Assembly (NCBI RefSeq): GCF_037892425.1 | Contig: NZ_JBBKTT010000001.1 | Coordinates: forward strand, 806,001-870,000 | Reading direction: 5' to 3' | Length of the DNA stretch: 64,000 bases | Source: Lacibacter sp. H375 | Lineage (GTDB): Bacteria; Bacteroidota; Bacteroidia; Chitinophagales; Chitinophagaceae | Shown: positions 25,065 to 49,538 of the stretch, in pieces | Layout: each line of letters opens with the position of its first letter | Numbering within the stretch: position 1 is the stretch's first letter | The notes under the pieces: generated by a model | What the model was told of the DNA's origin: nothing | What the model saw: the letters and a program-made list of their open reading frames with translations, nothing else | The model's database searches: none | Translations under genes and position numbers: made by a program

Positions 25065-26096
25065 TTATGATTTGATTGCCGATCCCCTGATCAGCAACTC
25101 AGGTGTAAGTACACGCTTTTCAAATTCTTTTACCGGCCTTTTACTTTCAACCAACTGCAACAACAGTTCTGTGGCTGCTCTGCCCATTTCTTCTGCCGGC
25201 TGACGGATAACTGTCAATGGCGGGTCAACCAACTCAGCAATGTCAGAATTTGAAAAGCCGATCAACGCAATGTCTTTTGGAATATCCAATCCACGACGCT
25301 TCAAGGTTTTTAAACAACCAGTTGTTAATTTATCGCTTGTGGTAATAATGGCATCCGGCTTTTGTTTTAAGGTAAGCAGCTTGTTCACCGCTTCTTCCAC
25401 TTCAGAAAAAACCATTCCGCCATAAAAACAATGCTGTACGTATTCTTTGCTGTATGAAATATTATGCGCTTTCAATGCATCATTGTAACCGGCTAAACGT
25501 TCGGCAGTAATGGACAAAAACTCTGATCCTGCTAATGCAGCAATTCGTTTAAATCCGTTCTTAATAAGATGTTCAGTTGCTTCATATGTTCCCCGGTAAT
25601 TGTCTACAATTACTTTGTGCGTATCAATATCATCATGAATGCGGTCGAACAGTACGATCGGCATTCCACGTGCATGCAGGGCTTTGATATGTGTAAGATC
25701 AGTTGTTTCTGTTGATAAAGAAATGATCACCCCATCAACGGAACGTGATGCAAGGAACTGCAGGTCGATCACTTCACGTTCGTACGACTCCCGGCTTTGC
25801 GATACAATTACATTATAACCCCTGTCGTAAGCGATCGATTCAATGCCATTGATCACCTGTGAAAAAAAGGTATTGGCAATTTCACACACTACAACGCCTA
25901 TAGATCTGCTTCGCTTTTCTTTTAAACTTAATGCAATAGGATTGGGCCGGTAATTGAGTTTTTCAGCACACTCAAGCACCAGTTGTTTGGTTTCTGCACT
26001 GATCTCATGACTATCACGCAATGCCCTCGAAACGGTCGATGTAGAAAGCCCCAATGCTTTAGCAATATCTTTTATCGTTACAGCTTCAAACTTCAT
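25065..26096 (-). CDS. LacI-family transcriptional regulator
   Basis: A 343-residue LacI/GalR protein. The N-terminal helix-turn-helix is TIKDIAKALGLSTSTVSRAL (about 7-26), followed by the hinge YRPNPIALSLKEKRS. A periplasmic-binding-protein-like sensor fills about 60-340 (IGVVVCEIANTFFSQVINGIE, then DGVIISLS, IALIGFSNSDIAELVDPPLTVIRQP). It is transcribed away from the second susC, with 368 bp between them that hold a strong palindrome. It is the only dedicated regulator in the pectin half of the window, so it is the leading candidate to control the pectin genes and perhaps itself. The effector may be a uronate or pectin-derived sugar acid, which is inference. Confidence 0.92.
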   Translation of the reverse strand: MKFEAVTIKDIAKALGLSTSTVSRALRDSHEISAETKQLVLECAEKLNYRPNPIALSLKEKRSRSIGVVVCEIANTFFSQVINGIESIAYDRGYNVIVSQSRESYEREVIDLQFLASRSVDGVIISLSTETTDLTHIKALHARGMPIVLFDRIHDDIDTHKVIVDNYRGTYEATEHLIKNGFKRIAALAGSEFLSITAERLAGYNDALKAHNISYSKEYVQHCFYGGMVFSEVEEAVNKLLTLKQKPDAIITTSDKLTTGCLKTLKRRGLDIPKDIALIGFSNSDIAELVDPPLTVIRQPAEEMGRAATELLLQLVESKRPVKEFEKRVLTPELLIRGSAIKS

Positions 26097-26121: not shown

Positions 26122-26230
26122 GTTTATTCATACCTGAAATGATGGGCCACTTCGGGCCTCAATTCATAACCTATTGCAAATCATTTTTTTGATAAAACAG
26201 ACAGGGCAGGATGGTTGTTTAAAAAATGGC

Positions 26231-26260
26231 ATCGTTCTCGGGAACGATTGCGTAAATAAA
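26231..26260. promoter_or_regulatory. Operator-like palindrome with TTGCGTAAATAAA half-site
   Basis: ATCGTTC (26231-26237) and GAACGAT (26242-26248) are perfect inverted arms around TCGG, and the right arm continues into TTGCGTAAATAAA. The same extension occurs upstream of the polygalacturonase gene at 47790-47802, at an identical distance from a promoter-like box. It is a likely LacI-family binding site. Confidence 0.65.
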
Positions 26261-26273
26261 AGGTTTTAAACCC

Positions 26274-26304
26274 TTCAGTAATCCTCAAAATGTGCCTAGA
26301 CTTG
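26274..26304 (+). promoter_or_regulatory. Candidate promoter of the second susC operon
   Basis: TAGACTTG (26297-26304) differs from TAnnTTTG at one base. TTC lies 20 nt upstream (26274-26276), where TTG is expected. It starts 49 nt after the beginning of TTGCGTAAA, exactly as at the 47839 box. Confidence 0.5.
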
Positions 26305-26411
26305 TTACGACAACAGAACGGATTGCATGCTAAAACATAAGTCGCCAGACCGTGTCTAATTCAACAGCCATTTAGTTAACGATTCAAAAAATCAGTTTCT
26401 TTTTAAACCCA

Positions 26412-26464: not shown

Positions 26465-29400
26465 ATGAAACAATCTTTACTCCTGCTTTTGCTTTTGATG
26501 TGCGGCACTTTGCTATTTGCTCAAAATCGCCAGATCAAAGGAAAAGTAATGGACGATGCAGGTGCACCGCTGCAAGGTGTAAACGTATTATTAAGTGGAT
26601 CAAAACAGGGAGTGCAAACAGATGCGGCAGGAAGTTTTGCTATTGAGGTGCCGGGATCAGGTGCAGTATCACTTGTGATCAGTTACAGCGGTTATAAATC
26701 TCAAACTGTAAGAGTTGATGGTAAATCCGACGTATCTATTAGCCTTGAAAAAGATGTAAGCACTTTGGAAGATGTAGTGGTGATCGGTTATGGATCTATT
26801 AAACGTAAAGACCTTACCGGTACGGTTTCTTCCATTGGTGCAAACGAACTTTCTAAGATTCCGGTTGCAAGTGCAGCCGAAGCGATTACCGGTCGTTTAC
26901 CGGGTGTGCAGGTAACAACTGTTGACGGTGCGCCGGGTGCAGAAATCGTGATTCGTATACGTGGTGGCGGTTCTGTAACACAGGATAACTCACCATTATA
27001 CATTGTAGATGGTTTCCCGGTAAACAGTATCAATGACATTGCTCCTGCAGATATCGCCAGCATCGACATTTTAAAAGATGCAGCTACTTCTGCTATTTAT
27101 GGTGCAAGAGGTGCTAATGGTGTTGTGATCATCACAACCAAATCAGCAAAAGCGGGTAAAACAACTATTTCATTTAATTCATTTGGTAGTGCCCGAACAT
27201 TGCCCCGTCAGTTAGATGTCCTGTCGCCCTATGAATTTGTGTTGGCGAATTATGAGTATGCAAGATTGCGTAGCCAAAGTGAAGTAGATAATTTCAGCAA
27301 ATACTTTGGTGTGTATGAAGATCTGGAATTATACAAATACCAGAAAGGAACAAACTGGCAAAAAGAATTGTTTGGTAAGCCGGTTTTCTCTCAGCAACAT
27401 AACATCAGTATTACAGGCGGTACTTCTAAAACAAAATTCAGTTTAAGTGGGACGAATAATACCGACCAGGGATTGATGAAGGGTTCGGGGTACATGCGGA
27501 ACTATCTCAACTTTAAACTGAATCATGAGCTTGCAAAATCATTGAAGCTTGATTATTCAACCCGTTTTATACATACTGTTATTGATGGTGCAGGTTCTTC
27601 CGGTTCATCGAGCATTCGTATTGGCGATGCTATCACTACCCGTCCGGTAAATGGTCTTGCTGATTTTATTCAGCTTGATAATACCGGTACTGATGATGAT
27701 TATGAACAATTCCTTAAAAGTTTGATCAGCCCGACAAAATTGCTTGAACAGGATTATCGCAAACGTTTAGCTCACACGTTAAATATGAACGTTGCCGGAA
27801 CATGGACTATCATTCCAAGCCTTACTTATCGTTCTGAGTTTGGTATGGATCTTACTTTCGGTCAGCAAAAGCGTTACTATGGTCCTTTAACCAGTACTTC
27901 ACGAAACGAAGGTGGTAATCTTCCGCTTGGAGAGATCACCAATTCAAACGGACGTAGTTTCCGTTGGGCAAATACGCTCACTTATAAAATGGAATTTGGT
28001 AAACATGACTTCACAATCCTTGGTGGCCAGGAGATCAATATTCTGAACAAAGGATTTTCAGAATACAACCGTGCGAAACTCTTTGTTGAAAACACAACAC
28101 CCGAGCGCATGTTTGCAAACATGACCCTTGGTACACAGGACAGACATACAACTACAGTTCAGGCAGGTCAAAAAATTGCTTCATTCTTTGGACGGATAAA
28201 CTACCAGTATGATTCTCGTTACTTGCTTACGCTTACAGTTCGTTCAGACGCATCTACAAAGTTTGCACCTGGCAGACAGTGGGGCTACTTCCCGGCTGCA
28301 TCTTTTGCATGGCGTGTATCACAAGAAGACTTCATGAGCAATGTGAAGTTTGTTGATGATTTGAAGTTCCGTATCAGTTATGGTGCTGTGGGTAACGATC
28401 GTATTGCTGATAATATCTGGAGAGTATTGTTTGCACCATCAGACAACAGAACAATTGGTTTTGCTGATGTTGCCAATCCATATTACACTTATGCAACAAG
28501 ATCATTACCTAATCCTTTTGTACAATGGGAAACAAATATTACACGAAATGTGGGTCTTGATTTCACCATGTTCAAGCAACGCTTAACAGGTACATTGGAT
28601 CTCTACTGGAACAGTGCAAAAAACCTGTTAGTTGAAACAGACATTCCACCAACAACAGGATTTACTGTACAGCAACAAAACATTGGTCAAACTTCTAATA
28701 AGGGTATTGAGCTTGGTTTGAATGGTACAATTTTCCAAAAGAAAAACTTTACGCTGAATGCATCTTTCAATATTGGTCTCAACAAATCAAAAATTGATAA
28801 CCTTGGCGGACCACTTGAAAAAGCGCTGCAATCAAACTGGGGAAGTACAGATCTGAGATCGCAGGATGATTACCGTGTTTATGTTGGACGAACAATTGGT
28901 TTAATGTATGGCTATGTAAATGATGGCATGTACAGTGTAGATGATTTTGCATCATACAATCCCATTACTAGAACGTATGCTTTAAAGCCAGGTGTAACAA
29001 ATATTCAAACATTCCTTGGTGGTATTGGTTTACGCCCCGGTGTAATGAAATTGAAAGACCTGGATGGTGATGGTATCATTACAGCAGCCGATCGTCGTGT
29101 GATTGGCAGTGCATTGCCTAAATATTCTGGTGGTTTCGGTTTGAATGCTATTATAAAAGACTTCGATGTAAGTGCCTTTTTCAATTTTGTTGTAGGTAAC
29201 GATGTGTATAATACAGGTAAGATCTCTTACAACCAGTTTTACCGCACTACCTATGGTAATATGCTGAATACAGTTAATTCAAGCAACCGTTTTAAATACA
29301 TCGATGCTGCAGGAAATCTTGTTACCGATCTTGCAGAGTTAGGCAAGTTAAATCCTAATCCTACAATATGGTCGCCGTTCTCATTTGGCAATGCTACACC

Positions 29401-29683
29401 GGTATTTCATTCATGGGCTGTTGAAGATGGTTCGTTCCTGCGTTTGAATAACCTTACAGTTGGTTATTCATTACCCAAACGTATTATTCAAACAATGCGT
29501 ATGACCAAACTGCGTGTATATGCTACAGTATACAATGCGTTCCTCTGGACAAAATATTCTGGTTTCGATCCTGAAGTTAGTACGACAAGAAGCGATGGTT
29601 ATTCGCAATTAACCCCAGGTGTAGATTATTCGAGCTATCCAAAGAGTCGCAACTTTACTGTCGGCGTTAACGTAACATTTTAA
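26465..29683 (+). CDS. SusC/RagA-family TonB-dependent outer-membrane transporter (pectin locus)
   Basis: A 1072-residue SusC-type importer. The signal peptide is about 1-20 (MKQSLLLLLLLMCGTLLFAQ). The carboxypeptidase-D regulatory-like domain starts at RQIKGKVMDDAGAPLQGVNV (about 22-41). The plug begins at EDVVVIGYGSIKRKDLTGTV (about 102-121) and includes SPLYIVDGFPVNSINDI and IDILKDAATSAIYGARGANG. The barrel follows and ends in NFTVGVNVTF. It differs from the SusC at 2934 in both plug and barrel, so the two pairs are not a recent duplication. It should import pectic oligosaccharides, judged from the lyases and esterases downstream, and it is probably driven by the operator and promoter at 26231-26304. 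Confidence 0.93.
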   Translation: MKQSLLLLLLLMCGTLLFAQNRQIKGKVMDDAGAPLQGVNVLLSGSKQGVQTDAAGSFAIEVPGSGAVSLVISYSGYKSQTVRVDGKSDVSISLEKDVSTLEDVVVIGYGSIKRKDLTGTVSSIGANELSKIPVASAAEAITGRLPGVQVTTVDGAPGAEIVIRIRGGGSVTQDNSPLYIVDGFPVNSINDIAPADIASIDILKDAATSAIYGARGANGVVIITTKSAKAGKTTISFNSFGSARTLPRQLDVLSPYEFVLANYEYARLRSQSEVDNFSKYFGVYEDLELYKYQKGTNWQKELFGKPVFSQQHNISITGGTSKTKFSLSGTNNTDQGLMKGSGYMRNYLNFKLNHELAKSLKLDYSTRFIHTVIDGAGSSGSSSIRIGDAITTRPVNGLADFIQLDNTGTDDDYEQFLKSLISPTKLLEQDYRKRLAHTLNMNVAGTWTIIPSLTYRSEFGMDLTFGQQKRYYGPLTSTSRNEGGNLPLGEITNSNGRSFRWANTLTYKMEFGKHDFTILGGQEINILNKGFSEYNRAKLFVENTTPERMFANMTLGTQDRHTTTVQAGQKIASFFGRINYQYDSRYLLTLTVRSDASTKFAPGRQWGYFPAASFAWRVSQEDFMSNVKFVDDLKFRISYGAVGNDRIADNIWRVLFAPSDNRTIGFADVANPYYTYATRSLPNPFVQWETNITRNVGLDFTMFKQRLTGTLDLYWNSAKNLLVETDIPPTTGFTVQQQNIGQTSNKGIELGLNGTIFQKKNFTLNASFNIGLNKSKIDNLGGPLEKALQSNWGSTDLRSQDDYRVYVGRTIGLMYGYVNDGMYSVDDFASYNPITRTYALKPGVTNIQTFLGGIGLRPGVMKLKDLDGDGIITAADRRVIGSALPKYSGGFGLNAIIKDFDVSAFFNFVVGNDVYNTGKISYNQFYRTTYGNMLNTVNSSNRFKYIDAAGNLVTDLAELGKLNPNPTIWSPFSFGNATPVFHSWAVEDGSFLRLNNLTVGYSLPKRIIQTMRMTKLRVYATVYNAFLWTKYSGFDPEVSTTRSDGYSQLTPGVDYSSYPKSRNFTVGVNVTF

Positions 29684-29711: not shown

Positions 29712-31541
29712 ATGAAAAAAATAGTTTTCTTTTTAATCGTTCTTGCTGCAGGTTCACTGCAATCGTGCAAGAAGTTTTTAGTGGCCGATTCGCCATCACT
29801 TACAGATCTTGAGTATGTGTTTAATAGCGAAGCCGATGCTAAAAAAGCAGTGAACGCAGTGTATGCGCTGTTTAACCAGGATGCATATACTTCAAGGCTC
29901 TCAAATAATTTTTCCGGCAACACAGATATTGAGTGCGGCGGTGTTTCAGGTTCGCCCGATGGTGCACGCCGTGATATCTGGTCGTTTGAAGCAACTCCTG
30001 CCAATGCTGATCTATTAACTGTTTGGAACAATGGATACAATGCCATTAACCGTGCAAACGAATGTGAAAAAGGTTTGACAGAGGTTTCATTGGCAAAAGA
30101 TCCCAATAACAAAGTGTACAATAATCTTTTGGGTGAAGCAAAAACGCTTCGTGCATTATGGTACTATTGGTTAATGAATCATTGGGGTGATGTTCCTTTT
30201 AAAACAACACCATCTCGTGCTGGTGATAACTTTTATCTCGAAAGAACCGGAAGAGATACCATCCTTACATTCTTAATAAATGATCTTATCGCAATAGAAC
30301 CAAAAATGTCGTGGGCCGAAGAACTTGATTTTGGTATTGAACGCATCAACCGTGAATTTGTAATTGGTTTCATTGCACGTTTATCATTGATGCGTGGTGG
30401 CTACTGGCTTTATCCTGACAAGACGATGAAGCGCAAAGATGATTATCTCAAGTATTATGAAATAGCTAATACTTACACAAAAAAACTGATGGATCTGAAA
30501 CCACGTGCTCTTCCCGATTATGCAACGGTTTTCACGAACGTAAACAAATACATCAAACCGCTTAACAGTGATGTGTTGTATGAAGTGGCTTTCCATCCCG
30601 GCTTTGGTGATGTTGGTTGGAACCATGGTATAAGAGTAGATGCGGGTACGCATCCTTACGGCTCAGGTTCAAATTACCTATCATTACCTCTTACTTACTA
30701 TCACTCTTTCGACACTACAGATAAACGCTTGCCTGTTACTTGCTACCTGGTATATTTCGATAAAGATCTGGTTCAGCAACCTGCCGGTGCAACTTCTATT
30801 GCTCCCGGAAAATGGAACAGGTTATTGGTGCCAACACCATTAGGACCATCCACCGCAAAAGGTACAGGTATCAACTGGCCGCTTATGCGTTATGCCGATA
30901 TCTTATTAATGTTTGCAGAAAGTGAAAACGAAATAAACGGGCCAACTGCTGCTGCACAGGAAGCATTGCGAAAAGTTCGCAAGCGTGCTTTCACAGAATC
31001 ATTGTGGGCCGATAAAGTAGAAACCTACATTACTACAGTTGCAGGAAGTAAGCAATCTTTCTTTGATGCAATTGTTAACGAACGTGCCTGGGAGTTTGGC
31101 GGCGAATGCTTACGCAAATATGATCTTGCACGTTGGAACCTCTACGGCAAAAAAGTAGCCGAAGCAAGAAACACACTTTTACAAATGGGTATTGATGGTC
31201 ACGCAGGAACAGGTACTTATTCAAATCTGCCGGACGTAATGTATTACAAACGTAACCCTGATAATACAATTACATGGTATAATAAATATCGCAGAGCAGC
31301 GGTAATACCACCATTAAAAGATGTGCCTTCAGTTGGCAGCAACCCCGATGGTTATTTGCAGGTTAACTGGACAAAAACAATGTACACTCCTTCTACAAGT
31401 ACACCAGGCAATTTCGTACTCTGGACATGGCGTGGATATACAGATAACACAGGGGTTACGCCATTAAGGTATATTCTACCACTGCACAGTGGTGTTATCA
31501 CAAGCAGCCTTGGTACATTAAAAAATCAATACGGTTATTAA
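29712..31541 (+). CDS. SusD/RagB-family surface glycan-binding lipoprotein (pectin locus)
   Basis: A 609-residue SusD-type lipoprotein, 28 bp after its SusC partner. The lipoprotein signal is MKKIVFFLIVLAAGSLQSC with Cys19, followed by KKFLVADSPSLTDLEYVFNSEADAKKAV. The N-terminal TPR-like region contains LLGEAKTLRALWYYWLMNHWGDVPFK (about 136-161, marked for position only). The C-terminal SusD domain has YADILLMFAESENEINGP (about 395-412) and ERAWEFGGECLRKYDLARW (about 457-475). It should cap the transporter and bind pectic glycans at the surface. Confidence 0.94.
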   Translation: MKKIVFFLIVLAAGSLQSCKKFLVADSPSLTDLEYVFNSEADAKKAVNAVYALFNQDAYTSRLSNNFSGNTDIECGGVSGSPDGARRDIWSFEATPANADLLTVWNNGYNAINRANECEKGLTEVSLAKDPNNKVYNNLLGEAKTLRALWYYWLMNHWGDVPFKTTPSRAGDNFYLERTGRDTILTFLINDLIAIEPKMSWAEELDFGIERINREFVIGFIARLSLMRGGYWLYPDKTMKRKDDYLKYYEIANTYTKKLMDLKPRALPDYATVFTNVNKYIKPLNSDVLYEVAFHPGFGDVGWNHGIRVDAGTHPYGSGSNYLSLPLTYYHSFDTTDKRLPVTCYLVYFDKDLVQQPAGATSIAPGKWNRLLVPTPLGPSTAKGTGINWPLMRYADILLMFAESENEINGPTAAAQEALRKVRKRAFTESLWADKVETYITTVAGSKQSFFDAIVNERAWEFGGECLRKYDLARWNLYGKKVAEARNTLLQMGIDGHAGTGTYSNLPDVMYYKRNPDNTITWYNKYRRAAVIPPLKDVPSVGSNPDGYLQVNWTKTMYTPSTSTPGNFVLWTWRGYTDNTGVTPLRYILPLHSGVITSSLGTLKNQYGY

Positions 31542-33305: not shown

Positions 33306-34730
33306 ATGAATACAAAACAGGTTACAATTGCGCTTGCTGCTTTATTACAGTTTACGTTGAATGCCTGCGCACAAACAAAACAGGTAACCAATAACAATAC
33401 AGCAGCAATTGCTTTTCCCGGTGCTGAAGGTTATGGTAAATACACAACCGGTGGCCGGGGCGGTAAAGTATTGATCGTGACAAATCTCAACGATGATGGC
33501 CAGGGAAGTTTTCGTGATGCAGTGGAAGCAAAAGGCAAACGCATTATTGTATTTGCTGTTTCAGGCACCATTCATCTCGAAAAGAAATTATTCATCAAGG
33601 GCGATGTAACCGTTGCCGGACAAACGTCACCTGGTGATGGTATTTGTTTCGCAGACCAACCGGTGAGTTTAGCAGGCGACAATATTATCATGCGTTACAT
33701 ACGTGTACGCATGGGTGATAAATACCAGCGACAAAAAGGAATGGTTGATGGCAGTGGTGGCGATGATGCGTTTGGTGCATCAGGCCGCAAACATATCATC
33801 ATCGATCATTGTTCGTTCAGCTGGAGTACCGACGAAGTATGTTCTGTTTACAAAGGCGACAGTACAACGCTGCAATGGAATATTATCACTGAACCACTCA
33901 ACTACTCTTATCATTTTGAAACAGGTGATAAAGACTGGGAACATCATGGCTATGGTGGTATTTGGGGCGGACAACATTTATCAGCACATCATAATTTGTT
34001 TGCGCATTGTGTAAGTCGTAACCCACGCTTCAATGGTGCACGCCTTGGAGCCGATGCAGAGTTTGTTGATTTCAGAAATAATCTCATCTACAATTGGCAA
34101 CACAACAATGTGTATGGTGGCGAAGGTGGCACTTACAATATGGTAAACAATTATTATCGTTACGGTCCTGAAACAAATAAGAATGTTCGTTACCGCATTG
34201 TAAATCCTTCAAAACTTGACAAACAACCTTACGGACAATTTTATGTTGATGGCAACTATGTTGATGGAGCACCTGAGGTAACAAAGAATAATGTTGCGGG
34301 TGTACACATGGACCCGAAAGGAACAGAAGAAGAAAAGAAAACAGTGATCAAAACTGTTGCTTTCCCAACTGATGTAATCCCAGTGCAATCTGCAGAGGAT
34401 GCATACAAAGCGATCTTAAAACAAGTTGGCGCTTCTTTTCAAAGAGATACCATGGATGCACGCATCATCAATAATGTGATCAACAGAACCGGAAAAATTA
34501 TTGATGTGCAGGGTGGCTATCCGCATCACTCAGCCTTTGAAATCACCACCAATGCTTGGCCCGTTTTGAAATCCGCACCCTCACCTGTTGATACAGATAA
34601 AGATGGTATGCCTGATGAATGGGAAAAGAAGAACGGATTAAATGCAAATGATGCTGATGATGCAAGTACAAACAAACTGCATCAACACTATACCAATATT
34701 GAAGTTTACATCAACAGTTTAATTAAGTGA
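33306..34730 (+). CDS. Pectate lyase, PL1 family, lipoprotein
   Basis: A 474-residue PL1-type lyase that would cleave polygalacturonate by beta-elimination with calcium, giving unsaturated oligouronides. A lipoprotein-like signal ends LNAC (about residue 20). The parallel beta-helix starts at IAFPGAEGYGKYTTGGRGGK, followed by VSGTIHLEKKLFI and GQTSPGDGICFADQPV. Calcium-binding acids lie in DGSGGDDAFG and IDHCSFSWSTDEV, and the presumed catalytic base Arg241 is in NPRFNGAR. The tail DTDKDGMPDEWEKKNGL resembles a calcium-binding thrombospondin-3/dockerin-type loop. It is followed by the acetylesterase 1 bp later, so the two are translationally coupled. Confidence 0.93.
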   Translation: MNTKQVTIALAALLQFTLNACAQTKQVTNNNTAAIAFPGAEGYGKYTTGGRGGKVLIVTNLNDDGQGSFRDAVEAKGKRIIVFAVSGTIHLEKKLFIKGDVTVAGQTSPGDGICFADQPVSLAGDNIIMRYIRVRMGDKYQRQKGMVDGSGGDDAFGASGRKHIIIDHCSFSWSTDEVCSVYKGDSTTLQWNIITEPLNYSYHFETGDKDWEHHGYGGIWGGQHLSAHHNLFAHCVSRNPRFNGARLGADAEFVDFRNNLIYNWQHNNVYGGEGGTYNMVNNYYRYGPETNKNVRYRIVNPSKLDKQPYGQFYVDGNYVDGAPEVTKNNVAGVHMDPKGTEEEKKTVIKTVAFPTDVIPVQSAEDAYKAILKQVGASFQRDTMDARIINNVINRTGKIIDVQGGYPHHSAFEITTNAWPVLKSAPSPVDTDKDGMPDEWEKKNGLNANDADDASTNKLHQHYTNIEVYINSLIK

Positions 34731-35485: not shown

Positions 35486-38400
35486 ATGAAACTGCTTATT
35501 AACGATTGCTTTCTGAAACGTACTATTGTTTTTCTTTTTTTATTATTGCTGACTACAGTTGCAGCAAACGCACAACAAATCGCATTTCCCGGTGCTGAAG
35601 GTGCCGGTCGTTTTTCAACTGGTGGCAGAGGAACAGTGAGTGCGCCAACAACTGTATTTGAAGTAACACACTTGAACGATGATAACAGTGTTGGCAGTTT
35701 ACGTTATGCATTAGGTCAAACTGCAACACATCGTACCGTTGTGTTTCGTGTGTCTGGAACGATTCATCTAACATCACGTTTAACCATCCGCAGTAACACA
35801 ACTATTGCCGGACAAACAGCTCCCGGCGATGGTATCTGTCTTGCTGATTACCCCGTGGTCATCAGTGGTGATAATGTGATCGTTCGATATATCCGCATTC
35901 GCATGGGCGATAAAAATCAACTCATCACTACACCTGCAAATTGTGGTGTGCCTGTTTCTCCTTTTACTGCAGCTTGTATGCCAACAACAAATAGTGGTGG
36001 TGATGATGCATTTGGAAATCTTGGTGGCAAGAATATCATCATCGATCATTGTTCCATCAGTTGGAGCAGTGATGAAGCATTAACTGTTTATCGTGGTGAT
36101 AGTTTGACCATGCAATGGAATCTTGTTTCAGAACCGCTGAACTATTCTTATCACTACGAAGGTGATGCCGATTTCCAGGAACATGGCTATGTAGGTATCT
36201 GGGGAGCAAAAAGAGGATCGTTCCATCATAATTTATTGGCAGATGCGAAAGGACGTAATCCACGCTTTGCAGGTATCAGCACTTACTCTCCTGCAACAAT
36301 TGGAATTGAGAATGCAGATTTCAGAAACAATGTTATTTATAACTGGGGTGGCTATAGTACCAATGGTGGTGATGGTGGTAATTATAATGTGGTGAACAAC
36401 TATTACAAGTATGGGCCATCAACCGGCACAGGCACATCTGTTTCTGTTCCCGTTCGAGGCATGATCGTTCAACCAAGTAAAACAACAGGTACCACACCTA
36501 TTCCTTATGGTAAGTTTTATGTTGCAGGAAATTATGTTGATGGATATAATGCTATCAATGCAAATAACTGGTTGGGTGTGTCCATGAGTGGTGGTGTGCA
36601 AGCCGATACAACGTTAGCGAAAACAACAACCGAACATGATATTGCACCTGTTACAACGCATACTGCATTGGAAGCCTACAATCTTGTGTTGCAATATGCA
36701 GGTGCAAGTTTAAAACGTGACACGTTAGATGAACGTATTGCAAACGATGTACGTAACCGCACAGGAAGAATCATTGATGTGCAAGGTGGCTATCCGCATG
36801 GTACTCCTTATGCAAGTACAGTAAATGCATGGCCCACCTTACTTTCAACGGCAGCGCCAACAGATACTGATCATGATGGTATGCCTGATACATGGGAAAC
36901 TGCAAACAGTTTAAACCCGAACGATGCAAGTGATCGTGGGGTTTTTGCCGGGAATGGTTATACCAATCTTGAAAATTATCTCAACTCATTAATTACAACG
37001 CAGCAATCAACAACACCTGTTATTTACACATCAGGTACGTTAACTGCATTTACACAAACAGTAGGTACTCCTTCAACTTCACAATCATTTACTGTTTCAG
37101 CAGCAAATCTTACAGCAAACCTCAGCATTACGGCTCCTGCTTCTTACGAACTTTCATTAGATAACTCTACATGGAATAATTCTGTTTCATTAACTCCAAC
37201 AAGTGGCACCGTTGCTTCCACACTTTTATATGTTCGGTTGAATGCAATTGCAGCGGGACCTTATGCCGGAAATATTGTTGGCACAAGTATAGGTGCAAGG
37301 AATATGTCGATTGGAGTGACAGGTACTGCTTCACAAAATTTACAAAATGCAGCAATCGGTTTTTTTCCGGGTCTTGATGGAGGTTTCGAAAATCAAACAG
37401 TAGGTTCATACTCTACTGTCAGTGCACACACATCAACTACCAATTGGGAAGTATCTGCTGCCTGGGATATAAAATCAGGTGATGCACGCACGGGTAATAA
37501 AATTATGTTTTACAAACAGGCGAGCACAAGTGTTAAATATATGTTTTCGCCAGTGTTAACCAACCCTGCGCTCAGTCAGAATACGGACTATGTCATTCAG
37601 TTCTGGTATAAACCTGCAGGTACATTAAGTGCGGCAACTGTATTAAATGGTTCTGCAACAGTGGTGGGAGCAACGGGTGGAACAGGTACTTCGTTAACAT
37701 CAGCAACTGTTACGTTAGATGCATCCACTCCGCAAGACTGGCAACTATTTACGGGCACATTAAAAACAGCAAACACAACTCCTACCAGTACTTATTTCGG
37801 AATGAAAATCACCAATCCGCAGTCGCCTTATTTTTATATTGATGATTATGTTGCTTATCCGGGCACAACAGTAGACAATGCAGCACCAGATGCAATTACA
37901 AATTTAGCTGTCGCTTCATCTGCTACTTCTATTGCATTAACCTGGTCTGCTCCTGCAAGTGGAATTGACAATGGCGGTTACATGGTTGTAAGAAGTACAG
38001 TTAACACAGCACCAACACCCAATGCAAAAGGTGTATATGTCCTGGGGAATACGATTGGTGCTGATCATACAGTTTTATATACAGGAACATCTGCTGCGTT
38101 TACCGATAATTCTGTTTCAGCAGGCTCTACTTATTATTATCATGTATTTACTGCAGATAAAGCATTTAACTATTCAGTAGTAACATCTGTATCTGCTACT
38201 GCAAGTAATTCAACATCTCCAACTATTCTTGCAACAGCAAGCTTTACCAATTTTACTCAAACGATTGGTTCGCCATCTGCCGTACAAAAAGCTACAGTAA
38301 GTGGCACGAATCTTACAGGTGATATTACAGTTACTGCTCCATCAGGTTATGAAGTTTCATTGAATGGCACAACATGGACAAACAGTGTTGTCTTATCTCA

Positions 38401-41119
38401 TGTATCAGGAACAATTTCATCAACAGAAGTTTCGGTACGTTTGAATGCAAGCATTGCAGGAATTTACAATGGAAATATTTCTGTTGCAGGTGGTGGAGCA
38501 ACAACAAAAACATTAGCCGTAAACGGTATCACATCAAATCCTGTTGTTACGCCTGCGTATGATGTACTGGTAGCAAAAGATGGTTCAGGTAATTATACAT
38601 CGGTGCAGTCAGCAATTACTGCAGCACCAACCAACCGCACTTCACCATGGAGAATTTATATTAAGAAAGGAAAGTATGTAGAAACGGTTACGATTCCAAC
38701 CAACAAACCATTCATGCAGTTGATTGGTGAAAGTATGGCAGAGACAATTATCTCTTACGATAACTATTCAGGTAAAGCGAATCCTGCGGGTGGTACCTAT
38801 GGTACTTCAACCAGTGGCACTATGACCATTAATGCTGCAGATGTAATGTTGATGAATCTTTCAATAGAAAACGCAACCGGTTATGGTATTAATGCAAACG
38901 CACTTGTTCCTGCACCGGGCGATGGACCACAAGCTGTAGCAGTCTATACAACATCAGACAGAGTGGTGTTTTTCAACTGTCGCATGAATGGCGGACAAGA
39001 CACCTACTATGGTGGCAATAACAAAGGCACACGTGTATATATGAAGAACAGTTACATTGATGGCAATACTGATTTCATCTTCGGATCATCAACCATCATC
39101 TTTGATACATGTGTTATTTATCCACGTACAAGATTAGATAACAGTACAGGTGGTTTTGTTACTGCTGCTAATACAAAAGCAGAATCAGGTTATGGTTATG
39201 TGTTCAGAGATTGCAAGCTCACAAAAAACCGTGGCACTACATTATACACATTAGGTCGCCCATGGCAAAATGATGCCGGCACAATTGATGCTGCGAAATC
39301 ACGTAACAAAACAGTATTCCTGAATTCATTCATGGGATCATCTATTAAACCAGAAGGTTGGAGTGTGTGGGATGCGGGTACTAATACATCATACATTACG
39401 TATGCAGAATACAATACCAAGAATTATGACGGTACTGCAAAAGATATTAGCGGTCGTGTAAGTTGGAGTAAACAATTAACAGCAGGAGAAGCGGCGAAGT
39501 ATTATAACAACGATACGGTTTTTGTAAATGCAAACACGCCTGCTATGGCCACATGGAATCCATACAGTACATGGCCAGAGTTGAATACTGCATTTGTTCC
39601 TGAATTATCTGCATCAAACGTCATTGCACGTAAACCTAATGCAACATCAACAACAGTAAATGTTACATGGAATATCAGCTGGCCAATGTCAGGCATCAAA
39701 TCCGAGTTGTACAGAAGTTCAGACAAACAAAACTTCAGTTTAATTGATACACAGATCAGCAGCGAAGATTCTGCCTGTAATTTTATTTATGTCGATAATG
39801 CACCTGCAGCAGGAACCAGTTACTATTACATTGTACGATTATCGAAAGCAGGATTTACAACTACTACATCAGATACTGCTTTTGTATCAAGCAAACCAAC
39901 CATTACTGTAACCGCAGCATTGTCTGATTTTTTACAAGGACTTGGTACGCCATCAACAACACAGAGCTATTTGGTTTCCGGATTGAATATTATAGACAGT
40001 ATAAAAATTGTTCCACCTGTTAATTATGAAGTATCCGTTGATGCAGGTACAACATGGTATAACAATACAAAACCACTGGGACTGAAGCCCACGAATGGTA
40101 CTGTTGCAAATACAACGTTAGCATTAAGATTGAATGGAACGGGCATTGGCACTTTCAACGATAATATTATTCATAGCGGTACATTAGCTGATACAGTAAA
40201 ACTGGCGGTGAAAGGAACCATTCAATCGCAACCGGTTCAAATTTCAAGTGTGTTGCAACATTGGCCATTCACACAAAATAACCAGGACAGTGCAGCCATC
40301 CGTTCAGCAGGTGTTATTGCAAGTGCTCCAACCTTCAACAAGTTTGCAGTATCTGATGGCGTTACGGTTGCCGGCGTGTTGCCTTATTCATTAACACGTG
40401 GACAAGTATTTGCTGCAACTGCCGATGGATTATGGACAACTGCTTCTGGTGGGCCGGGAGGTAATTTGAATCGTACAAACTATGAGCAGTTTACGATCAC
40501 TGCTGCATCAGGATACACAACAAGGATTGATAGTTTGCTGTTCAATAATGCATTCTACGCTTCAAGCAGTAATATTAAAATTGCAGTTGTTTACTCGCTT
40601 AGTGGGTTTGTAACCGACTCAACTGAAGTAACAGGTTATTCCTTTGCTACTGCGAAAACATTGACGCAGGATAACAACGGTCCATCTGCTGTCTATCGTT
40701 TTCCATTGAATGGATCGACAGGTGTAACGCTCCTCGAAGGACAAACCCTTTCAGTAAGATTGTATTTTACTTGTGGCAGTACCAGTGCCGGTCGTTATAC
40801 ACAGTTAAAAGATGTAATTGCAAAAGGGATAGCAACACAAAATGTAACAACGGGTGTGCGGGATAATGTTGTGCCTGTTGGTTTCTCGGTTTATCCGAAT
40901 CCTGCGAATAACAAGGTTTACATTAAACATCCACGAAGCGGAACAAACACAACAATTGCATTGTATTCGCTCATCGGCGTTAAAATTGCCGAATGGAAAG
41001 CAACTGCAAACACCACACTTACGTCAGTAGATGTCCAAGGCTTGCCACAAGGTCAGTATCTCATTCATTATAATTCAGGAAAAGAGAACGTAGTTTTAAA
41101 ATGCATCGTAGTACATTAG
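35486..41119 (+). CDS. Secreted pectate lyase (PL1)-pectinesterase (CE8) fusion with T9SS tail
   Basis: An 1877-residue multidomain enzyme. In order: signal peptide (1-30); PL1 pectate lyase (about 32-500, presumed catalytic Arg260 in NPRFAG, calcium-type tail DTDHDGMPDTWE near 460); repeat domain A (about 515-615); jelly-roll-like domain with FENQTVGSYS and YFYIDDYVAYPG (about 619-795); a fibronectin-III domain (about 796-908); repeat domain B (about 914-1015); CE8 pectinesterase (about 1024-1370); a fibronectin-like domain (about 1372-1468); repeat domain C (about 1472-1579); another beta-sandwich (about 1582-1785); and a type IX sorting domain (about 1795-1877, FSVYPNPANNKVYI to the end). 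CE8 residues Asp1172 (GGQDTYYG), Asp1196 (TDFIFG) and Arg1258 (LGRPW) are intact. It can demethylate and cleave homogalacturonan in one chain, exported by T9SS. Confidence 0.93.
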   Translation: MKLLINDCFLKRTIVFLFLLLLTTVAANAQQIAFPGAEGAGRFSTGGRGTVSAPTTVFEVTHLNDDNSVGSLRYALGQTATHRTVVFRVSGTIHLTSRLTIRSNTTIAGQTAPGDGICLADYPVVISGDNVIVRYIRIRMGDKNQLITTPANCGVPVSPFTAACMPTTNSGGDDAFGNLGGKNIIIDHCSISWSSDEALTVYRGDSLTMQWNLVSEPLNYSYHYEGDADFQEHGYVGIWGAKRGSFHHNLLADAKGRNPRFAGISTYSPATIGIENADFRNNVIYNWGGYSTNGGDGGNYNVVNNYYKYGPSTGTGTSVSVPVRGMIVQPSKTTGTTPIPYGKFYVAGNYVDGYNAINANNWLGVSMSGGVQADTTLAKTTTEHDIAPVTTHTALEAYNLVLQYAGASLKRDTLDERIANDVRNRTGRIIDVQGGYPHGTPYASTVNAWPTLLSTAAPTDTDHDGMPDTWETANSLNPNDASDRGVFAGNGYTNLENYLNSLITTQQSTTPVIYTSGTLTAFTQTVGTPSTSQSFTVSAANLTANLSITAPASYELSLDNSTWNNSVSLTPTSGTVASTLLYVRLNAIAAGPYAGNIVGTSIGARNMSIGVTGTASQNLQNAAIGFFPGLDGGFENQTVGSYSTVSAHTSTTNWEVSAAWDIKSGDARTGNKIMFYKQASTSVKYMFSPVLTNPALSQNTDYVIQFWYKPAGTLSAATVLNGSATVVGATGGTGTSLTSATVTLDASTPQDWQLFTGTLKTANTTPTSTYFGMKITNPQSPYFYIDDYVAYPGTTVDNAAPDAITNLAVASSATSIALTWSAPASGIDNGGYMVVRSTVNTAPTPNAKGVYVLGNTIGADHTVLYTGTSAAFTDNSVSAGSTYYYHVFTADKAFNYSVVTSVSATASNSTSPTILATASFTNFTQTIGSPSAVQKATVSGTNLTGDITVTAPSGYEVSLNGTTWTNSVVLSHVSGTISSTEVSVRLNASIAGIYNGNISVAGGGATTKTLAVNGITSNPVVTPAYDVLVAKDGSGNYTSVQSAITAAPTNRTSPWRIYIKKGKYVETVTIPTNKPFMQLIGESMAETIISYDNYSGKANPAGGTYGTSTSGTMTINAADVMLMNLSIENATGYGINANALVPAPGDGPQAVAVYTTSDRVVFFNCRMNGGQDTYYGGNNKGTRVYMKNSYIDGNTDFIFGSSTIIFDTCVIYPRTRLDNSTGGFVTAANTKAESGYGYVFRDCKLTKNRGTTLYTLGRPWQNDAGTIDAAKSRNKTVFLNSFMGSSIKPEGWSVWDAGTNTSYITYAEYNTKNYDGTAKDISGRVSWSKQLTAGEAAKYYNNDTVFVNANTPAMATWNPYSTWPELNTAFVPELSASNVIARKPNATSTTVNVTWNISWPMSGIKSELYRSSDKQNFSLIDTQISSEDSACNFIYVDNAPAAGTSYYYIVRLSKAGFTTTTSDTAFVSSKPTITVTAALSDFLQGLGTPSTTQSYLVSGLNIIDSIKIVPPVNYEVSVDAGTTWYNNTKPLGLKPTNGTVANTTLALRLNGTGIGTFNDNIIHSGTLADTVKLAVKGTIQSQPVQISSVLQHWPFTQNNQDSAAIRSAGVIASAPTFNKFAVSDGVTVAGVLPYSLTRGQVFAATADGLWTTASGGPGGNLNRTNYEQFTITAASGYTTRIDSLLFNNAFYASSSNIKIAVVYSLSGFVTDSTEVTGYSFATAKTLTQDNNGPSAVYRFPLNGSTGVTLLEGQTLSVRLYFTCGSTSAGRYTQLKDVIAKGIATQNVTTGVRDNVVPVGFSVYPNPANNKVYIKHPRSGTNTTIALYSLIGVKIAEWKATANTTLTSVDVQGLPQGQYLIHYNSGKENVVLKCIVVH

Positions 41120-47696: not shown

Positions 47697-47764
47697 AGCA
47701 GTCAATAATACTCCTTGAAACCGGTAATGAACTTATAATTTTATCTGGTTGATTCCGAACAGGT

Positions 47765-47803
47765 TTTACGCAACAATTCCCGGTATCGTTTGCGTAAATA
47801 AAC
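47765..47803. promoter_or_regulatory. Operator-like palindrome TTTACGCAA/TTGCGTAAA
   Basis: TTTACGCAA (47765-47773) and TTGCGTAAA (47790-47798) are perfect inverted arms, 34 bp in all with a CCCGG-like centre. The right arm reads on into TAAA, giving the same TTGCGTAAATAAA as at 26248-26260. Its position well upstream of the -33 box fits an activator-type or distal operator site. Confidence 0.65.
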
Positions 47804-47815
47804 AACTTGATTTGC

Positions 47816-47846
47816 TTGACCGGGTTGGCAGTTAAAGGTAAAATTG
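47816..47846 (+). promoter_or_regulatory. Candidate promoter of the polygalacturonase-uronate operon
   Basis: TTG (47816-47818), a 20-nt spacer and TAAAATTG (47839-47846) fit the Bacteroidota -33/-7 pattern with one mismatch in the -7 box. It lies about 50 bp before the GH28 start and may drive a transcript reaching the end of the window. Confidence 0.55.
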
Positions 47847-47894
47847 TACCCCGAAAGCGGCGTCATTTCTATCTTTTAACGATTCAACGTTGTC

Positions 47895-49538
47895 ATGAAA
47901 AAAATAATCGCAATACTGTCTTTTATTTCTATTGGCTTATTTGCATTTGCGCAGTTCAATGCAAAGTTGCCGGTGATCATTGCTCCCAAGTTTAAAAAAG
48001 ACACCACCAACATAAAAAAATTCGGCGCCGTTCCTGATGGTCATACACTTAATACAAAAGCCATCAACAATGCAATTGATGCCTGCAGCAAAAAAGGTGG
48101 TGGTGTTGTATTGGTTCCTGCAGGTTTATGGTTAACAGGGCCAATTGTATTGAAGAGTAATGTCAATCTGCATTTAGCAACAGGATCTACTTTATTGTTT
48201 ACAGCTGATAAATCGCAATACCCATTAGTGAAAGCAAACTGGGAAGGGTTGCCGCAGATGCGTAACCAATCTCCGATCTCTGCAACTGGTGTAAGTAACA
48301 TTGCAATTACAGGTAAAGGAATTGTAGATGGTAATGGTGATGGATGGCGCTCAGTGAAAAGCGATAAGTTAACTGCGGGTCAATGGAAAAAATTAGTTGA
48401 GAGTGGTGGTGTGGTAAGTGATGATAAAAAAACATGGTATCCTTCTGAAGCTTTTATGAAAGCAAGCAAAGGACCGGCAAATCCAGGTGAGATAAAGCCT
48501 GAACGTGATGCCGCTTACTTCGCCGGCATCAAAGATTTTCTTCGTCCCAACATGGTGTTGATCACCGATTGCAAATATATTTTACTGGAAGGTGTAACCT
48601 TTCAAAACTCAGCTGCATGGTGTTTACATCCGTTAATGAGTGAGCACTTAACAGTACGTAACATCTTTGTAAAGAACCCCTGGTATGCACAAAATGGTGA
48701 TGGTATTGACGTAGAGAGTTGCAGCAATGTACTCATCGAAAATTCGGTGTTTGATGTGGGTGATGATGCATTGTGTATGAAGAGTGGTCGTGATGCAGAA
48801 GGCCGCAAACGTGCAATGCCAACGCAGAATGTGATCATTCGTGGGTGCACCGTGTATGCATCACATGGTGGTTTTGTAATTGGCAGTGAAATGAGTGGTG
48901 GTGCAAGAAACATGTACATCAGCAATTGCACGTTCATTGGAACAGATATTGGTTTACGTTTTAAAACAACAAGAGGTCGTGGTGGTGTAGTAGAAAATAT
49001 CTTCATCAAAGACATCTACATGAAAGATATTCCTGCTGAAGCCATTTTGTTTGATATGTATTACATGGCGAAAGATCCTGTGCCGCTCTTAGGCGAAAAA
49101 AGAGAATTACCAAAAGTGGAAGTAAAACCGGTTGATGAAACAACACCGGTATTCAGAAACTTTCATATCAGCAATGTGTATTGCAACGGTGCTGCTAAAG
49201 GCATTTTTGTAAGAGGTCTTCCTGAAATGCATGTAAAAGATATTGTCTTAGAGAACATGGTATTGCAGGCCGATAAAGGAATTGATGTGCAAGAAGCAAG
49301 TGGTATTACGTTCAAAAATATCCAGATCATTTCTGCTGATACAAAACCGGTAGTTGATATTCTCAACAGCGATAATCTATCATTCGACAAGATCACTTAC
49401 AAAGACGGCAGTGAAGTATTGTTTCGTGTAAGTGGTGCTCGTGTAAAGAACATTAGCATAAAAAATACGAATGGTGCAAATTCAAAACAAAAGTTGCTTA
49501 CTGAATTTGGAGCCGATGTTAAAGAAATTAAATGGTAA
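47895..49538 (+). CDS. Polygalacturonase, GH28
   Basis: A 547-residue GH28 enzyme with signal peptide MKKIIAILSFISIGLFAFAQ. FGAVPDGHTLNTKAINNAID starts the parallel beta-helix. The catalytic motifs are all present: NGDGIDVES (Asp269, Asp272; the canonical NTD is here GDGID), GDDALCMKSG (Asp290, Asp291), SHGGFVIGSE (His324) and LRFKTTRGRGG (Arg355-Lys357). It hydrolyses alpha-1,4 bonds of polygalacturonate, complementing the lyases. The length fits the exo-acting bacterial GH28 group with an extended N-terminal loop. It is the first gene after the operator and promoter at 47765-47846. Confidence 0.93.
   Translation: MKKIIAILSFISIGLFAFAQFNAKLPVIIAPKFKKDTTNIKKFGAVPDGHTLNTKAINNAIDACSKKGGGVVLVPAGLWLTGPIVLKSNVNLHLATGSTLLFTADKSQYPLVKANWEGLPQMRNQSPISATGVSNIAITGKGIVDGNGDGWRSVKSDKLTAGQWKKLVESGGVVSDDKKTWYPSEAFMKASKGPANPGEIKPERDAAYFAGIKDFLRPNMVLITDCKYILLEGVTFQNSAAWCLHPLMSEHLTVRNIFVKNPWYAQNGDGIDVESCSNVLIENSVFDVGDDALCMKSGRDAEGRKRAMPTQNVIIRGCTVYASHGGFVIGSEMSGGARNMYISNCTFIGTDIGLRFKTTRGRGGVVENIFIKDIYMKDIPAEAILFDMYYMAKDPVPLLGEKRELPKVEVKPVDETTPVFRNFHISNVYCNGAAKGIFVRGLPEMHVKDIVLENMVLQADKGIDVQEASGITFKNIQIISADTKPVVDILNSDNLSFDKITYKDGSEVLFRVSGARVKNISIKNTNGANSKQKLLTEFGADVKEIKW

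Follow-up and report, generated by a model that had tools for sequence, protein, structure and literature searches.

The window, by which we mean the whole stretch of DNA analysed here (64,000 nucleotides, G000:C1:806001-870000), forms part of a genome of 5,079,137 bases (5.08-Mb), which was scanned on both strands. It harbours a pectin locus in which a gene for a LacI-family protein is transcribed divergently from a SusC/RagA transporter gene. The protein encoded at 25065-26096 possesses a LacI-type helix-turn-helix (HTH) domain (PF00356, 6.1e-15) followed by a periplasmic-binding-protein-like sugar-binding domain (PF13377, 6.7e-35), both above the Pfam cut-off, and has the domain order of the LacI/GalR class. 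Its closest relative found was 94% identical (from a MAG named Chitinophagaceae), and the proteins of Lacibacter cauensis and L. luteus were 89% and 88% identical, respectively. Downstream of SusD the window carries a pectinesterase, GH43 and further genes. A second, plus-strand run of pectin and uronate genes is headed by a GH28 gene and reaches about 62367; it comprises GH28, GH88, a pectinesterase-like gene, tagaturonate reductase, a galactarate-dehydratase-like gene (below cut-off) which we infer to be altronate dehydratase, uronate isomerase, KduD (just below cut-off), KduI, two PfkB kinases and KDPG aldolase. The pectin locus also holds a 1877-aa protein (35486-41119) that combines a pectinesterase domain with a secretion sorting domain at its C-terminus and over most of its length gave no Pfam match at 1e-5, and a 474-aa protein (33306-34730) with zero Pfam matches at 1e-5. 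A search of the window against Rfam at gathering scores gave zero matches. The features needed below are as follows.

25065-26096, minus strand: LacI-family regulator gene, the likely binder, judged from Pfam domains and co-occurrence with the motif
26227-26240, minus strand: weaker inverted site O2 predicted at susC, CGAGAACGATGCCA, centre 26233.5, containing the left arm of the palindrome; based on the inverted-copy score
26239-26252, plus strand: predicted main operator O1 at susC, CGGGAACGATTGCG, centre 26245.5; 0-2 mismatches over the 22-mer at 75 of 79 LacI loci
26253-26260, plus strand: A-tract TAAATAAA on the promoter side of susC O1, at about -56 to -49; 11.1 bits in 75 sites and common to the paralogue operators
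26297-26304, plus strand: susC -7 box TAGACTTG, expected start near 26309; such a box lies 35-37 nt after the A-tract at 119 of 154 sites
26465-29683, plus strand: SusC/RagA outer-membrane transporter, first gene after site 1, divergent from the LacI gene
29712-31541: SusD, directly following SusC
47769-47782, minus strand: predicted inverted overlapping site at GH28, CGGGAATTGTTGCG, centre 47775.5, 12 bp upstream of the main one
47781-47794, plus strand: predicted main operator O1 at GH28, CGGTATCGTTTGCG, centre 47787.5
47795-47802, plus strand: A-tract TAAATAAA at the GH28 site
47839-47846, plus strand: GH28 -7 box TAAAATTG, expected start near 47851
47895-49538, plus strand: GH28 gene, first of the pectin and uronate run

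An earlier note on this DNA had described a perfect-arm palindrome and a 13-base element shared by the susC and GH28 promoters. The letters and positions it gave were all correct, namely ATCGTTC-TCGG-GAACGAT at 26231-26248, TTGCGTAAATAAA at 26248-26260 and TAGACTTG at 26297-26304 on the susC side, and TTGCGTAAATAAA at 47790-47802 and TAAAATTG at 47839-47846 on the GH28 side. The distance from the start of the element to the start of the box was indeed 49 nt at both sites, which equals 36 nt from A-tract to box. That the pair exceeds chance was borne out, as the exact 13-mer TTGCGTAAATAAA occurred only at 26248 and 47790 in the whole genome, both strands included. When one mismatch was permitted, 26 genome matches (24 beyond the exact pair) were obtained as compared to 27 for the reversed control pattern, and with up to two mismatches the window showed no enrichment (6 found, 4.7 expected); the weight therefore rests on the exact copies and on conservation.

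The susC and GH28 sites were found to share more than had been noticed, namely CGG.A.CG.TTGCGTAAATAAA. The corresponding 22-mer pattern CGGNAWCGWTTGCGTAAAWAAA matched the genome exactly at three places (window 26239, window 47781 and C1:3791833), the next-best match having 2 mismatches. Occurrence of the motif at many unrelated genes, which would have spoken against a dedicated operator, was not seen in the genome scan, where each of the three strict sites lay beside pectin-type genes. The third strict site (C1:3791833-3791854; L175:3834-3855) is situated between a GH88 gene and a SusC/SusD pair and has no TANNNTTG at 35-37 nt; a site ahead of a SusC gene (L230) in the same-genus genome G083 likewise lacks TANNNTTG at this distance. 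A fourth genome site, C1:4795303 (2 mismatches), was without TANNNTTG about 36 nt on and was left out of the count. At the GH28 site (window 47760-47802), the overlapping operators are enclosed by an inverted repeat made up of TTTACGCAA and TTGCGTAAA, and the second GH28 site thus has a short A-tract of its own (TAAAAC, minus strand).

The divergent LacI protein had been named as the natural candidate for binding the element, and both its neighbourhood and its distribution point to it as the likely binder. We collected 79 loci with a LacI relative of 62-94% identity, after dropping one (L122) whose LacI gene begins at the edge of its contig. For each locus we took the best divergently oriented match to CGGNAWCGWTTGCGTAAAWAAA in the 700 nt ahead of LacI; it had 0 mismatches at 60 loci, 1 at 12 and 2 at 3, so that the element was present at 75 of the 79. 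Four loci had no match near LacI; L076 and L084 carried an exact copy further off and L077 and L121 none. On both strands of the LacI loci, with up to 3 mismatches, zero matches were oriented toward LacI. The recognition-helix residues STSTVSR were each 96-100% conserved across the 79 loci.

Co-occurrence was determined in 147 Chitinophagaceae genomes, where proteins with a score of 380 bits or more counted as orthologues, together with two truncated genes. AWCGWTTGCGTAAAWAAA was present in 58 of the 66 genomes with an orthologue and in 7 of the 81 without (Fisher p 6.5e-24), in a count which ignores kinship and at a threshold chosen after the table had been inspected; at 420 bits the figures were 54/61 and 11/86. 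The reversed control of AWCGWTTGCGTAAAWAAA was nearly empty (1 among the matches listed). Out of the 119 sites in this set, 32 lay less than 700 nt upstream of an orthologue, and all 32 were oriented away from it. An inositol-type paralogue of LacI also tracked the motif (31/41 genomes as against 17/57). In paralogue-free genomes the orthologue still predicted the motif (15/17 versus 2/40), while in orthologue-free genomes the paralogue predicted it more weakly (5/11 versus 2/40). Eight of the 66 orthologue genomes had no exact site. Among seven of these, a variant with 1-2 mismatches was present upstream of LacI in G087, G015, G098 and G076 (second copy), and only matches with 3-4 mismatches in G007, G133 and G040. 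Four genomes (G116, G119, G022 and G064) had sites elsewhere and none upstream of LacI. Taken together, the link of the element to this LacI group is well supported, and physical binding by LacI is what we infer from it.

Alignment of the sites revealed that the conserved element is not the palindrome ATCGTTCTCGGGAACGAT (centre 26239.5), which had been taken for the operator, but CGGNAWCGWTTGCG followed by TAAAWAAA, centred at 26245.5. CGGNAWCGWTTGCG was nearly invariant across the LacI loci. In 75 sites the left arm ATCGTT carried 5.3 bits, as compared to 10.1 for AWCGWT, 8.1 for TGCG and 11.1 for TAAAWAAA, and the three letters of CGG, which the search pattern leaves free, were 86, 97 and 89% conserved in 154 sites. 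The sequence CGGNAWC/GWTTGCG (slash at the centre) is an even inverted repeat with a CG centre, as reported to be typical of LacI-family operators (PMC4052901); C, G, A, W and C of its halves mirror each other and two positions differ. TTGCGTAAATAAA, earlier treated as one element, reads better as the right half of this operator plus a separate TAAAWAAA tract, since LacI paralogues with other operators bear the same tract. An inverted copy 12 bp upstream scored a mean of 9.0 out of 14 against CGGNAWCGWTTGCG, two positions being common to it and the main site, while 40 other offsets scored 3.5-6.0. On this sequence evidence the main operator is the predicted 14-bp site at 26239-26252, so placed because of the loss of the left arm, the conservation of CGG and the paralogue operators that end at TAAAWAAA; the left arm of the palindrome is part of a weaker inverted half-site that is often lost.

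Two other readings of the palindrome were weighed. In one, LacI would bind to ATCGTTCTCGGGAACGAT itself, with TTGCGTAAATAAA serving a different protein. Being an even palindrome with a CG centre, it resembles most of the LacI operators surveyed (PMC4052901), and 33 of 62 LacI-adjacent sites preserve its left arm perfectly; however, the arm is perfect in only 21 of 92 other sites and missing at the GH28 site of the window, so the palindrome is not the portion common to both sites, the information content of the arm is the low value given above, and the paralogue operators, when aligned, fit the shifted centre and stop at that same A-tract. Searched as such, the perfect 18-bp palindrome had a single 0-mismatch match in the window, and 7 matches with up to 3 mismatches as against 2.4 expected. 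The conservation data led us to reject it as the main operator, and this reading appears improbable. In the other, the palindrome acts as RNA, a minus-strand stem-loop followed by T6 serving as attenuator or terminator in the LacI leader. A consensus scan did list a hairpin here, with a fold of -9.6 kcal/mol (z -2.8) in the window, and a T-run was present on the hairpin side in 28 of 62 LacI-adjacent sites as compared to 3 on the opposite side. Yet the z value was only -0.2 in the relative L059, and the arms showed no covariation, left position 2 and right position 5 varying independently (Fisher p 0.71). The absence of compensatory changes led us to reject an intrinsic terminator, and we consider an RNA role very improbable indeed.

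Downstream of the A-tract a promoter box was found at a nearly constant distance. TANNNTTG started 36 nt after the tract in 95 sites, 37 nt in 20 and 35 nt in 4, i.e. in 119 of 154 sites, where less than 1% would be expected at 35-37 nt from a background of 0.2% per position. After thinning to spacers less than 60% identical, 86 of 119 sites retained the box with a mean spacer identity of 0.29; thus, it is the length and not the sequence of the spacer that is constrained. The other 35 sites had no box at 35-37 nt, although 10 of these fitted 4 of 5 letters (null 8%). The box is of the TAnnTTTG kind known as the -7 box of primary-sigma promoters in Bacteroidota, with a fifth base that is mostly not T, the commonest forms being TAGACTTG (37) and TAGCATTG (26). 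No -33 box accompanied it, TTTG being present 17-24 nt ahead in 8 of 119 sites as compared to 5.5 (sd 2.3) in shuffled sequences, which renders moot the earlier description of the site as lying upstream of a -33 box. The sigma-70 scan used a consensus whose coverage does not extend to Bacteroidota promoters. The -7 box is reported to span -12 to -5 (PMC9723704), which places the operator centre at about -63.5 and the A-tract at about -56 to -49. An upstream site at fixed distance and helical phase, as in class I-type activation, was thus seen at 119 of 154 sites and not at 35.

The view that one operator with fixed spacing is common to two pectin promoters was supported, and the genes that follow the sites were determined throughout the family. 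Of 154 sites, 146 had a first downstream frame of at least about 120 aa no more than 900 nt away, and in 140 of these it resembled one of 34 window proteins of the pectin locus at 1e-8, while 6 did not. The matches were to SusC (69), GH28 (44), GH88 (8) and others (19); as SusC is a large family, it is the 71 non-SusC matches that carry weight. Relatives of the 474-aa protein mentioned above formed the first frame at 4 of the 154 sites.

A scan of the phylum found matches in 18 of 395 genomes, 8 in Chitinophagaceae and 10 outside, and nine of the ten carry ATCGTTTGCGTAAAAAAA. Six of the seven outside matches that were read (L285-L290) lie inside the end of a coding frame and were rejected as coincidence; the 18-mer there is located in the last ~65 nt of a long frame, just ahead of a SusC-like frame. 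The seventh, L284, lies between genes. LacI relatives at 1e-100 were present in 11 of 296 phylum genomes, four of them outside the family. Of three such outside orthologues examined, one has kept the operator (2 mismatches over the 22-mer), the A-tract and a 37-nt spacing, and the two others, which come from another family, have kept TGGGAACGATTGCA but lack the A-tract; in these, TAAAATTG follows the operator at about 42 nt, as compared to 44 nt in the window.

The A-tract proved to be shared with LacI paralogues. The relaxed pattern CGNNANCGNTNNCGTAAAWAAA gave 147 matches, counted by hand, in 66 of 147 genomes as compared to 5 control matches, and the 49 that were not of the pectin type were fetched. 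Twenty-three of these had a divergent LacI starting less than 400 nt from them and the A-tract on the flank facing away from that gene, 24 had no LacI in the fetched stretch and 2 had a LacI otherwise arranged. The LacI proteins of the 23 sites shared 46-100% identity with one or other of two query proteins (one of the 23 was itself a query), and 4 of 30 loci examined for paralogue upstream regions gave no LacI frame. Paralogue operators such as CGAAAACGGTTTCG, CGAAACCGGTTTCG and CGTAAACGGTTACG end directly at TAAAWAAA; they differ from the pectin operator in sequence and are CG-centred, near-perfect palindromes. In the 23 flanks no common mirror-image A-tract was found on the LacI side. Columns 40 and 41 after the A-tract were T in 95 and 100% of the 23 sites, and an A-run was present at columns 27-32 (65-86%, one at 60%). 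The -7-like box of the paralogues thus lies about 5 nt further off than in the pectin branch, and there is therefore no single geometry.

In the genome analysed here, a LacI paralogue (G000:C2:125703-126812; L404:1632-2504) is divergent from a gene for myo-inositol oxygenase, with CGAAAACGGTTTCG and TAAATAAA located 66 nt upstream of LacI. Myo-inositol oxygenase produces glucuronate, and the paralogue locus may therefore feed the same uronate pathway. We tentatively propose, with rather more doubt than belief, that Chitinophagaceae LacI branches (pectin, inositol) use one grammar, consisting of a branch-specific CG operator, a common polymerase-facing TAAAWAAA and a -7 box, without -33, at a fixed distance peculiar to each branch, and that these LacI proteins are dedicated class I-like activators and not repressors.

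The element, its borders, spacing, orientation, conservation, target genes and link to the LacI group were all computed here. The best explanation as a whole, which we hold to be probable though far from certain, is a pectin/uronate promoter module in which a LacI dimer activates beside an A-tract. A dimer of the divergently encoded protein would occupy the 14-bp CG-centred pseudo-palindrome CGGGAAC/GATTGCG, on the promoter side of which follow TAAATAAA, 36 otherwise unconserved bases and the putative -7 box. In a state presumably set by a pectin-derived sugar acid, LacI would hold the C-terminal domain of the RNA polymerase alpha subunit on the A-tract, thereby rendering active a promoter without a visible -33 box. 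The weaker inverted site, centred 12 bp upstream and overlapping the main one, may tune occupancy; the two together would make up the palindrome of the earlier note. A symmetric dimer on a near-symmetric operator does not need an asymmetric flank, and the flank thus points to polymerase contact. The constant spacing and orientation of the site relative to the promoter suggest a regulator that turns the genes on and is not a mere block, and the earlier suggestion of activation from the upstream position holds as a suggestion.

The same operator and the same LacI could also serve repression, with the protein bound at about -64 hiding the A-tract, which would then be a constitutive UP-like element, or looping the DNA until a uronate ligand releases it. 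Most LacI-family proteins surveyed are reported to leave DNA upon ligand binding (PMC4052901), repression has been proposed for the pectin LacI of Clostridium phytofermentans (PMC5171806), two overlapping sites 12 bp apart could serve tight repression, and masking of an UP-like tract would give a similar sequence picture. However, at the 119 of 154 sites with a box the operator is situated far ahead of it, while repressors of the family are described as often binding at or after the start site (PMC5171806), and an unconserved spacer of fixed length with a promoter-facing flank is more natural for polymerase contact. We therefore regard repression as unlikely, though a serious alternative, and favour activation, because the flank faces the promoter, is common to regulators of differing specificity and keeps a fixed distance to the box. 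If activation from about -64 beside an A-tract is true, it would provide a readable rule for predicting LacI targets in a family that has received little study, and a way into the question of how promoters without a -33 box attract polymerase.

The operator of E. coli PurR, a LacI-family protein, is ACGCAAACGTTTGCGT, from the 14-bp core of which CGGGAACGTTTGCG differs at two positions. PurR was among the solved relatives of the pectin LacI (7e-41), but the score of the latter as PurR fell below the NCBIfam cut-off, and PurR serves another pathway; the A-tract and the fixed promoter distance found here also set the two apart. Ravcheev et al. 2014, in their survey of the family, describe sites that overlap at a distance of about 13 bp (PMC4052901). 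The present operators resemble those described there in being even pseudo-palindromes with a CG centre, an adjacent regulator gene and overlapping sites, and differ from that description in their unequal halves and in the TAAAWAAA flank facing the promoter at a fixed distance. Activation by LacI-family proteins has been reported for FixV of Mesorhizobium loti (PMC3538637) and for CcpA at pta/ackA (cited in PMC5171806), and an A-tract module of fixed orientation is not among the features described for them in those accounts. Among the open-licence PubMed Central texts listed by literature searches, none named the element in its title or abstract start.

With regard to pathway, UxaR, UxuR and KdgR of Bacteroides are LacI-family proteins predicted to regulate catabolism of galacturonate, glucuronate and KDG (PMC4052901, PMC3878776), and the present protein is like them, by description, in being a LacI-family protein and a putative regulator of uronate-type catabolism in Bacteroidota. 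Cphy2742 of C. phytofermentans is a LacI/GalR protein proposed for the entire pectin and galacturonate regulon, and the two systems are alike in the proposed LacI-type control of a whole pectin regulon; the Cphy2742 sites differ in being described as cre-box-like and lying at or downstream of start sites, with repression proposed (PMC5171806). Polysaccharide loci of B. thetaiotaomicron are reported to be governed mostly by hybrid two-component systems, SusR-like proteins and ECF sigma/anti-sigma pairs (PMC3878776); here, a simple cytoplasmic LacI appears to govern the whole pectin route, from outer-membrane import to the keto-acid aldolase.
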